Assembly: GCF_000241265.1 (NCBI RefSeq)
Contig: NZ_BAEE01000061.1
Span: 1-64,000, forward strand
DNA from: Gordonia araii NBRC 100433
GTDB taxonomy: Bacteria > Actinomycetota > Actinomycetes > Mycobacteriales > Mycobacteriaceae
Length of the DNA stretch: 64,000 nt
Direction: 5' to 3'
Below, piece after piece: positions 9,886-12,900 of the stretch; position 1 is the first letter of the stretch; every line of letters starts with the position of its first letter. The notes beneath the pieces were generated by a model that searched no databases, was not told where the DNA came from, and saw only the letters and a program-made list of their open reading frames with translations. The position numbers were made by a program, and so were the translations under genes.

Positions 9886-11154
9886 TCAGGCGGCCGGCTG
9901 TCGCAGGGCGTCTCGCATCCAGCGCAGCACACTCGGCATCGCCCACCCGGCCGCGATCATGTGCTCACCGGGGACGGGCAGGTAGTCGACGGTCGCCCCC
10001 TTGGCGCGCCAGCGATCGGCGAGTTCGGTCACGCCTTCCTCGGGGATGAACTGGTCGCCGATCAAACGGTCGCGCGAACCGTGGTACAGCAGGACGGGCA
10101 TCGTCGGCGGGGTGGCACCCGGCTTGTTGGCGTCGATCACCGCCTGGGCGACCTCGGATTCGAATGGTTCGGGGACGGTGGCCAAGACCCCCAGGTCGAT
10201 ACGGGCCACTCCCGACGCGGCCAGCGGTATCTGCGGAAAGTCTTTGATGAGCGTGGCCACGTAGAAGGCGAAGTCCCCGAAAAGCTGCGTCATGCTCGGA
10301 TACTCGCGCGCCTGGCCGATGGTCGCCGCGGCGAACAGGCCGGATCCGAGGCCGCCGTTCATACTGCGATACAGCAGGGCGTAGTCGGTGGGCGTGCCAC
10401 CGGCAACGGCGCCGTTGAACCTCAGTTCGGGCGCGTAGACCGGTTGTTCCTGTGCCGCCCACACGGTCGCGATGGCCCCACCGCTGTAGCCGTCCATCAC
10501 CGTCGGGGACTCGGCGAGATCCGGGCGGATGCGGTGCATCCCGCGCACGGAATCCAGGACGGCATGTGCGGCCATGACGCCCGCCGAGTAGGCCATTCGC
10601 GGTCCCTCGTGATCGGGGATGAGGACCGCGCAGTTGCGGGCCAGAAGCAGCGGGAGCAGCGGCGGTGCGTCGATATAGGTGCCGCGCGCGAGTCGATACG
10701 AGGGCGCGGCCTTGAGCCCGAGCGAGTTGATCGGCTGATTCCGAACCACGACCGGCCGCGGACCGTCCCCTCGCCATGGGCGGTCGGGTTCGATCAGCGT
10801 GGCAGTGACCGCCACGGCCTTGCCCGCGGTGTCGGTGGAGCGGACCATGAATCGCTCGAGAGTCGCCGCGGGAGTCGGGAGCCGCGGCTTCACCCGCTCG
10901 CTGCGGATGATCTCGCCGTTGGTCAGCGCGGATAGGTCGCCCGGGTCGGAGTAGAAGGCCAATCGCAGCGGCGTCGGAAGAATGGCGGCATGCCGGTCGG
11001 CGCGCTGCTCATCGGTCAGCCTGTGCGCCGCCCACTCGTTCAGGCGGCGGACGACGGCGGGGGTTCTCAAGGCTGCCGCCGAACCGGCGATACCGGCTAC
11101 TGCGGCTCCCGCGCTCGCCAGCGCGGCCTCGGCCGGGCCTGACAACTTAGACAT
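9886..11154 (-). CDS. LIP-family (secretory-type) lipase
   Basis: 422 residues. The catalytic serine lies in GYSGGA, the acid in HGSRDRLIGD and the His in VPGEHM, the order of the LIP lipase family (PF03583-like). The N-terminus has a hydrophobic Ala-rich stretch (AALASAGAAVAGIAGSAAAL) that could be a signal or anchor. The ATG at 11154 overlaps the upstream VOC stop by 8 bp, so the two are probably cotranscribed. Substrates are likely acylglycerols or other lipids. Confidence 0.82.
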   Translation of the reverse strand: MSKLSGPAEAALASAGAAVAGIAGSAAALRTPAVVRRLNEWAAHRLTDEQRADRHAAILPTPLRLAFYSDPGDLSALTNGEIIRSERVKPRLPTPAATLERFMVRSTDTAGKAVAVTATLIEPDRPWRGDGPRPVVVRNQPINSLGLKAAPSYRLARGTYIDAPPLLPLLLARNCAVLIPDHEGPRMAYSAGVMAAHAVLDSVRGMHRIRPDLAESPTVMDGYSGGAIATVWAAQEQPVYAPELRFNGAVAGGTPTDYALLYRSMNGGLGSGLFAAATIGQAREYPSMTQLFGDFAFYVATLIKDFPQIPLAASGVARIDLGVLATVPEPFESEVAQAVIDANKPGATPPTMPVLLYHGSRDRLIGDQFIPEEGVTELADRWRAKGATVDYLPVPGEHMIAAGWAMPSVLRWMRDALRQPAA

Positions 11155-11611
11155 CGCTGCTCCGCCCGTCCGGCTCGGGGGAGGCCACCTCCTCGGCGAA
11201 CATCACCAGAATGTCGCTCGGGCCACGGAGGTAGGTGAGTTTGTATACGTCGCCGTAGGTGGCCACGCCGCGGAGCGGATAGCAACCGTGCCGTGCCGCG
11301 ATGGCCAGTGCCTCGTCGATGTCGTCCACGGAGAACGAGACACGGTGCATGCCAACGTCATTGGGCGAGGCGGGATCGGTCTCGACGGCCTCGGGGTGGA
11401 TGTACTCGAAGAATTCGAGGCGACCGTGGCCGTCCGGCGTGGTGAGCACGGCGATCTTCGCGTGGTTGCCGTCGAGGCCGACCGCCGTGTCGGCCCACTC
11501 GCCGCTGATCGTGTCACGGCCCAGGACAGTCAGACCGAGGTCGGTGAAGAACGCGATCGCCGCGTCGATGTCCCGGACGGTGATGCCGACGTTCTCAAGC
11601 TTGATGGCCAC
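11147..11611 (-). CDS. VOC (glyoxalase/bleomycin resistance) superfamily protein
   Basis: 154 residues from GTG 11611 (MAIKLENVGITV...). Two beta-alpha-beta-beta-beta modules are visible: VGITVRDIDAAIAFFTDLGL...HAKIAVLTTPDGHGRLEFFEY and MHRVSFSVDDIDEALAIAAR...YKLTYLRGPSDILVMFAEE. Metal ligands of the fold are plausible (His in MHRVSF, Glu in LEFFEY), but the reaction cannot be inferred. It is upstream of and overlapping the LIP-family lipase. A GTG nine bases further upstream is an alternative start. Confidence 0.78.
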   Translation of the reverse strand: MAIKLENVGITVRDIDAAIAFFTDLGLTVLGRDTISGEWADTAVGLDGNHAKIAVLTTPDGHGRLEFFEYIHPEAVETDPASPNDVGMHRVSFSVDDIDEALAIAARHGCYPLRGVATYGDVYKLTYLRGPSDILVMFAEEVASPEPDGRSSDV

Positions 11612-11650
11612 GCATCGCACGCTACCAAGACGGCGTGACCGACGTCACGC

Positions 11651-11681
11651 TTGACCTCAACTTAACTTCAGGTCTTAGCGT
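11651..11681 (+). promoter_or_regulatory. sodA promoter with SoxR-type operator in a 19-bp spacer
   Basis: CCTCAACTTAACTTCAGG (11655-11672) matches 16 of 18 positions of the SoxR box known from enteric soxS (CCTCAAGTTAACTTGAGG), and both differences are symmetric. It lies between TTGACC (11651-11656) and TAGCGT (11676-11681). The spacer is exactly 19 bp, the overlong spacing typical of MerR/SoxR-activated promoters. The start codon follows 30 bp downstream. Confidence 0.75.
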
Positions 11682-11711
11682 TGCGGAGACAACCACTTCG
11701 GAAGGATCCGC

Positions 11712-12329
11712 ATGACCGCGTACACGCTGCCCGACCTGCCCTACGACTACAGCGCACTGGAGCCGCACATCTCCGCGAAGATCATGGAGCTGCACCACTC
11801 CAAGCATCACGCCAACTACGTGGCGGGTCTCAACGCGACGCTGGAGAAGCTCGACGAAGCGCGCGAAACCGGGAACTACGGAGCCGTCGCCGGACTGGAG
11901 AAGAACCTCGCCTTCAACCTCGGCGGCCATATCAACCACTCGGTCTTCTGGAAGAACCTCTCGCCCGACGGCGGCGATCGTCCGGCGGGTGAACTCGCCG
12001 CGGCGATCGATGAGCACTTCGGTTCCTTCGACAGGTTCCAGGCTCACTTCGAGCAAACCGCCCTGACTATCCAGGGTTCCGGATGGGCCATCCTGGCCTG
12101 GGACGCGCTGGGGCAGCGGTTGCTGATCGTCCAGCTCTACGACCAGCAGAGCAACATTCCCGCCACCCTCGTGCCGGTCCTGCAACTGGACATGTGGGAG
12201 CACGCGTTCTACCTCGACTACCTCAACGTCAAGGGTGACTACGTCAAGGCGTTTTGGAACATCGCCAACTGGGCCGATGCCCAAGAGCGCTTCGCCGCGG
12301 CGACTTCCGGCGGGCGAGTCCTTTTCTGA
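11712..12329 (+). CDS. sodA: Superoxide dismutase, Fe/Mn family (probably manganese form)
   Basis: 205 residues, full length for the family. Metal ligands are visible at His28 (ELHHSKHH), His76 ([10 protein letters not shown]), Asp160 and His164 (LDMWEHAFY). Residue 145 is Gln (LYDQQSN), where M. tuberculosis iron SodA has His. A Gln at this site is associated with manganese enzymes of the group. The protein dismutates superoxide in the cytosol. It is preceded by AAGGA and by a SoxR-type promoter, and followed after 4 bp by a flavin-reductase-like gene. Confidence 0.95.
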
Positions 12330-12333
12330 TCAG

Positions 12334-12900
12334 ATGACCACGACGACGCATACAGAGCATCGCGCCGGACCCGAGCAGCGGTACGACGGCTTCGCCCGCT
12401 ACGGCAGCGGCGTGAGTCTGGTCGCCGTGCACGACGGCGAGGAGGATCGCTTCTTCGTCGCCGCCTCGGTACTGACGGCGTCGGTCGAGCCGTTCGCACT
12501 CGCCGTCTCCGTCGGGACCGGGCGGGATGCCCTGCCGGCGATCCTGGACGGCCGGCCGTGGTCCCTGTCGGTCTTGGCGGCGCACCACCTGTCGTTGGTG
12601 CGCCGCCTCACCGGCGCGACTGGCCGTGCGGCGAGGCTGGCGGCGCTCGCCGACGCCGGGGCCGAGCGATCCCCGCAGGGGGCGCTCTGGTTGCCCGACG
12701 CGCTCGCGACGTTCTGGTGCGAGACCGCCTCCGCCACGCCTGTGAACGATCAGGTGCTGGTGGTCGGGGACGTCGTCGGCGGGAGCGCGCCGCGCGACGG
12801 GACCCCCTTGCTCCGCTGGAATCACGACTTCCACACGACCGCCGATCTGACGCCCGCCGTCGGGACGATCGGCGACCCGTCGGCCGACGTGGATCGCTGA
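12334..12900 (+). CDS. Flavin reductase-like FMN-binding split-barrel protein
   Basis: 188 residues from the ATG at 12334. The segments YGSGVSLVAVHDGEEDRFFV, AASVLTASVEPFALAVSVGT and VNDQVLVVGDVVGG follow the flavin reductase-like domain layout, and the C-terminal LLRWNHDFHTT corresponds to its substrate-side strand. The conserved TVSSFTSVSxDPP motif of active flavin reductases is altered to TASVEPFALAV, so activity is uncertain. The 4-bp gap to sodA makes cotranscription from the SoxR-type promoter likely, which would link it to redox stress. Confidence 0.65.
   Translation: MTTTTHTEHRAGPEQRYDGFARYGSGVSLVAVHDGEEDRFFVAASVLTASVEPFALAVSVGTGRDALPAILDGRPWSLSVLAAHHLSLVRRLTGATGRAARLAALADAGAERSPQGALWLPDALATFWCETASATPVNDQVLVVGDVVGGSAPRDGTPLLRWNHDFHTTADLTPAVGTIGDPSADVDR

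Follow-up and report, generated by a model that had tools for sequence, protein, structure and literature searches.

In enteric bacteria, soxR is transcribed divergently from soxS, and SoxS then activates sodA. Binding of SoxR to a box within a 19-bp promoter spacer is the textbook arrangement, its mechanism has been established for E. coli, and sodA of Vibrio vulnificus is also said to be controlled by SoxR. Placement of the SoxR box between the −35 and −10 elements is described as typical in the accessible portion of PMC4411124, where a role for SoxR in the regulation of sod in Agrobacterium tumefaciens is also cited. The accessible portion of a study of Stenotrophomonas maltophilia reports a SoxR box (ACCTCAACCAATGTTGAGGT) near the sodA1 promoter and the loss of menadione induction of sodA1 in a soxR mutant (PMC6479884). 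In Streptomyces coelicolor, SoxR answers a redox-active antibiotic and drives the expression of a transporter and redox enzymes; the regulon, as given in the accessible portion of that report, comprises an ABC transporter, a monooxygenase, a flavoprotein reductase, a quinone oxidoreductase, an oxidoreductase, and an epimerase/dehydratase (PMC4146615). The induction of both soxS and sodA in a strain expressing an Arthrobacter gene was explained, in the accessible text, by the SoxRS cascade rather than by a box at sod (PMC13405713). Among the titles and abstract openings listed, in which subscription journals are thinly covered, none was found to describe an actinobacterial sod under SoxR control.

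The locus described here lies in a 64-kb stretch of DNA analyzed as a whole (the window), in which positions 11651 to 11681 had been proposed, in a sequence-only reading, to be a SoxR-controlled promoter directly upstream of sodA. On the forward strand, a −35 element (TTGACC, 11651 to 11656) overlaps the first letters of a SoxR-type operator (CCTCAACTTAACTTCAGG, 11655 to 11672), which is followed by a −10 element (TAGCGT, 11676 to 11681) and by a probable ribosome-binding site (GGAAGGA, 11700 to 11706). The box thus lies between −35 and −10 elements separated by exactly 19 bp (TTGACC-19-TAGCGT), as that reading had stated and as expected for an operator of this kind, in which the two elements stand 19 to 20 bp apart. 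A scan for sigma-70 promoters with spacers of 16 to 18 bp found none between 11500 and 13000, which is to be expected because the spacer here is 19 bp.

The box is a palindrome like that of E. coli (CCTCAAGTTAACTTGAGG), with which it agrees at 16 of 18 positions, again as the earlier reading had it. The two deviations, at positions 7 and 15, are each a change of G to C. They had been described as symmetric, which proved to be mistaken: the dyad partners of positions 7 and 15 are positions 12 and 4, so that both changes break the palindrome, and what is left is an imperfect dyad (GACCT.AA.TTAA.TT.AGGTC) spanning 11653 to 11674. With up to three mismatches allowed, this is the only match to the box in the window, and no match was found in 100 dinucleotide shuffles; the agreement is far above chance. 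The genome-wide motif search that had been suggested was carried out with a 23-mer, which had a single match at up to three mismatches across the 3.9-Mb genome.

The gene downstream of this promoter, sodA2 (11712 to 12329, forward strand; stop codon at 12327 to 12329), encodes an accessory superoxide dismutase of the Fe/Mn family of 205 amino acids with both expected domains (Pfam PF00081 and PF02777; Sod_Fe_N, 116 bits; Sod_Fe_C, 122 bits). It is not the only sod gene of the genome but a second copy, a paralog with 66% identity being present on contig C51. The ATG of a flavin-reductase-like gene (12334 to 12900, forward strand; 188 amino acids; PF01613, 82 bits) follows at 12334, 4 bp past the sodA2 stop codon, in agreement with the earlier reading, and this gene, which the five other genus members with sodA2 or its remains have all kept next to it, is presumably cotranscribed with sodA2. 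Both sodA2 and its C51 paralog encode Q at position 145, which we take to be the Mn-type residue, and a division of labor between an Fe and an Mn enzyme was ruled out on this ground; the same residue occurs at 79 of 80 named sod loci (the best 80 of 568). A plasmid origin of sodA2 was likewise rejected, the best plasmid matches being just 65 to 68% identical; in three of these, no soxR was annotated within 3 kb on either side of sod. Divergent from sodA2 lies a VOC/glyoxalase-like gene (window 11147 to 11620, reverse strand), which occupies the position held by soxR in three relatives (G044, G052, and G023) and has no relative in the other loci compared.

We searched 59 genomes of the genus, all of which have a sod gene, and found sodA2 or its remains in six, a sporadic distribution. 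The gene is intact in the window genome (G000) and in G044, G052, and G015, whose sodA2 genes are 82 to 85% identical to that of G000, and is in pieces in the other two (G018, C1:754352-754735; G023, C113:174693-175251), where both the box and a nearby soxR have been kept. The box stands in the same place in all six, 59 to 64 bp ahead of the start codon, whether the gene is intact or a remnant, within a promoter of the form TTGACC-19-TAG(C/T)GT; with the spacing unchanged, the −10 element of the other five is TAGCGT in four and TAGTGT in one. The palindrome is therefore conserved upstream of every sodA2 ortholog or remnant found, as the earlier reading had required of a real operator, although the expectation does not extend to relatives at large, most of whose sod genes have no box. 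In G044, G052, and G023, a soxR gene encoding the four-cysteine motif is adjacent to and divergent from sodA2 (or its remnant) across the box. In G018, soxR lies about 600 bp from the remnant on the same strand, and in G000 and G015 the sole SoxR found (E up to 1e-20) is not encoded beside sodA2.

The soxR gene that was to be sought elsewhere in the window genome is present on another contig (C61:3774-4196), where it adjoins an ABC exporter. Its product is the only protein of the genome above the cutoff of the TIGR01950 profile (222 bits; cutoff, 117 bits), and it scores 175.6 bits against the solved SoxR structure 2zhg. It carries the cluster motif CIGCGCLSLERC, that is, CX2CXCX5C, the SoxR cluster motif as given in the accessible text of PMC4146615. 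Since SoxR is encoded on a different contig, any control of sodA2 would be exerted in trans.

A scan of the window genome for TTGACCTCAA-N6-TTGAGGT with up to two mismatches returned four sites, compared with one for the reversed control pattern. One is that upstream of sodA2. Another (C61:4242-4264; L104 and L145) lies between soxR and the divergent ABC exporter, a third, on C40, precedes an apparently leaderless aldo/keto reductase gene, and the fourth (C71:50063-50085; L102 and L144), the sole exact match in the genome, is flanked by isocitrate-dehydrogenase-type and exonuclease-type genes. The frame behind the C71 site is interrupted by stops, and its first open piece weakly resembles antibiotic biosynthesis monooxygenases (20.4 bits, under the Pfam cutoff of 23.1). 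TAGCGT or TAGCGC stands 19 bp past the −35 element at three of the four sites and CAGGCT at the C61 site. Allowing three mismatches added the other strand of three of the sites and one distant site near a MerR gene on C85. Boxes similar to that of the C61 soxR gene also accompany soxR in G008, G015, G022, G057, and G058, and 11 of the 30 soxR genes examined in the genus, that of G000 included, have a divergent site scoring at least 15/17 within 300 bp. At one locus (L242, G007), TTGACCTCAACTTAAGTTCAGGT-TC-TAGCGT separates soxR from a divergently transcribed gene for an MFS transporter. The C that the window box has at position 15 is also present in boxes next to soxR in G007 and G019.

A tree built from 54 genus SoxR proteins places the sodA2-linked SoxR proteins of G044, G052, and G023, together with the more distant one of G018, in one group (support, 96/92), outside of which fall the SoxR proteins of G000 and G015. 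By score (222 to 227 bits), the latter two belong with those of G008, G022, G057, and G058, the six not being resolved as one clade. In these six genomes, a C follows TCAA (or TAAA) in all 10 sites of the two-mismatch scan (8 of 8 when the two sodA2 sites are left out), compared with 19 of 78 sites in the other genomes, a difference for which Fisher's test gives a P value of 4e-6, overstated because the genomes are related. Among the sodA2 boxes themselves, the C after TCAA is found in G000 and G015 and a G in the other four. This pattern fits a sodA2 operator that was retuned after the loss of the neighboring soxR gene, which would be one event in one lineage; inheritance alone could also explain the distribution of C and G among the sodA2 boxes.

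A second palindrome, ACYTCAA-N6-TTGARGT, lies upstream of the housekeeping sod gene in 31 of the 34 genomes whose SoxR falls in the large clade, at a score of at least 11/14 (the exceptions being G006, G011, and G028), in 19 of them at 13/14 or better, and in none of the 25 other genomes of the genus (highest score, 10/14), counts to be read with the fact that the pattern and threshold were picked after examples had been seen and that the trait follows a clade. It is located at about −152 to −233 (e.g., L117, 1316 to 1335; L113; L128 to L130; L132; and L133), which is not MerR promoter geometry. No SoxR turned up in G033, whose sod promoter can be aligned and has a palindrome that looks decayed. 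It is conceivable, though we think it rather doubtful, that the genus has wired SoxR to sod more than once: through a soxR-sodA2 module in which sodA takes the place of soxS and whose local soxR was lost in the lineage of the window genome, the TCAAC left half of the operator being retuned to the resident SoxR encoded beside the ABC exporter, and, in genomes whose SoxR is of another clade, through a related palindrome that precedes the housekeeping sod by some 152 to 233 bp and lies outside a MerR promoter spacer, which would hint at an action of SoxR from farther upstream.

Beyond these genomes, we scored the 200 bp upstream of sod genes (111 bp at L030) at 17 fixed positions with a threshold of 13. 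From one contig scan we took named sod loci, the best 80 of 568; 7 of these 80 reached at least 13/17, and none did so with the reversed pattern. The seven comprise five Kribbella loci, Streptomyces sp. NP160, whose sod locus also has a divergent SoxR gene, and one Pseudonocardia locus, the weakest (13); the remaining 73 of these best 80 of 568 have no box within 200 bp upstream. In a sample of the family, 1 of 29 loci reached at least 13/17. The corresponding figure for the genus was 8 of 30, namely, the four sodA2 genes plus housekeeping sods at four loci, the sites of the latter lying at about −159 to −188 and having no TTGACC. As controls, the reversed pattern reached the threshold at 0 of 139 loci and shuffled stretches did so in 5 of 2,780 cases. 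The nearest SodA proteins outside the genus (within the best 80 of 568) are those of five Aeromicrobium loci, with 78 to 83% identity, and these loci have no box within 200 bp upstream. Given these loci and the 73 named loci without a box, the wiring is not tied to protein similarity. At two loci of genus g9 (L244, G228; L246, G210), the sod start lies 38 bp past the beginning of TGGACTTCGAGTGCACTCGAAGT or TGGACCTCGAGCGCACTCGAGGT, so that the gene is apparently nearly leaderless; no soxR occurs within the 5-kb stretches examined there.

Taken together, these comparisons suggest that positions 11651 to 11681 are very probably a promoter through which SoxR operates two genes as a unit, sodA2 and the flavin-reductase-like gene. 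Points that weigh against this view are the imperfect box with its two asymmetric positions, the location of soxR away from sodA2 in G000 and G015, the sporadic occurrence of sodA2, and the lack of a box at the five Aeromicrobium loci and at 73 of the best 80 of 568 named loci. The box might instead be read by another regulator of the MerR family, in which case sodA2 would answer a different signal. The genome has 13 MerR-domain matches, 12 of which, besides SoxR, are further possible binders, and the C85 MerR gene adjoins the distant look-alike site with three mismatches. Set against this, one protein alone passes the SoxR cutoff, the regulator encoded across the box in three relatives is a SoxR with the four-cysteine motif, and same-type divergent sites accompany soxR itself in the 11 of 30 cases noted above, so that we consider control by a different MerR protein unlikely.

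We give still less weight to the idea that the site is a relict, left by a soxR-sodA2 module that was acquired and then lost its soxR, with a decaying box and a promoter that is weak or constitutive. It would account for the fact that sodA2 of the window genome has no soxR next to it and for the one mismatch of its box to TTGACCTCAA-N6-TTGAGGT, a pattern that the boxes of four of the five relatives match exactly. However, the −35 element, the −10 element, and their spacing are all intact; G015, which likewise has no adjacent soxR, retains a 17/17 box; the odd C is shared with boxes that accompany soxR in G007 and G019; and decay of the kind seen in the palindrome at the other sod of G033 is not seen at the sodA2 box. 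A relict site is therefore very improbable.

The SoxR-sodA interpretation of the earlier reading is thus supported by the comparative evidence, from which we infer SoxR binding, redox induction, and cotranscription of the unit. SoxR dimers would occupy the box between elements set 19 bp apart, a spacer about 2 bp above the preference expected of a sigma-70-type RNA polymerase. A redox-cycling compound would oxidize the [2Fe-2S] cluster of SoxR, and the oxidized protein would then distort the DNA and bring the −35 and −10 elements into register, so that sodA2 and the flavin-reductase-like gene would be transcribed directly, with SoxR acting in trans in the window genome. A SoxS step would be unnecessary because the box stands at the sod promoter itself.

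The box type, the 19-bp promoter geometry, and, in G044, G052, and G023, the divergence of soxR from its target are shared with the enteric SoxR-SoxS system, but sodA2 (or its remnant) stands in the place of soxS in these three genomes. The claim that this would be a different wiring holds with respect to the enteric SoxS route but not more widely, for there is precedent in the accessible portions of the S. maltophilia and Agrobacterium reports; a direct SoxR-sod link has been reported or cited in proteobacteria and would be new at most for the actinobacterial group. In S. maltophilia, as here, one of two Mn-type sods bears the SoxR box; unlike the bearer of the window genome, that organism is a proteobacterium in which OxyR contributes too, and a divergent soxR-sodA pair is not mentioned in the accessible portion of the report (PMC6479884), whereas the group described here is actinobacterial and has a flavin-reductase-like gene after sodA2. 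The link of SoxR to sod in A. tumefaciens, as cited in the accessible text, is similar but again proteobacterial (PMC4411124). S. coelicolor offers the actinobacterial parallel, its SoxR exerting direct control through soxboxes over an ABC transporter and redox enzymes, and the other sites of the window genome resemble part of that regulon; there, however, six genes and no sod are listed in the accessible portion, and "superoxide dismutase" and "sodA" are absent from the main text (PMC4146615). Judged by the regulon composition given there, sod is the only unfamiliar gene among those at the sites of the window genome.

If the proposed wiring is true, SoxR in another actinobacterial genus would have direct command of superoxide removal as well. 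The six genomes, with soxR beside, near, or away from sodA2, would then form a natural series in which an operator can be seen to track a change of regulator.
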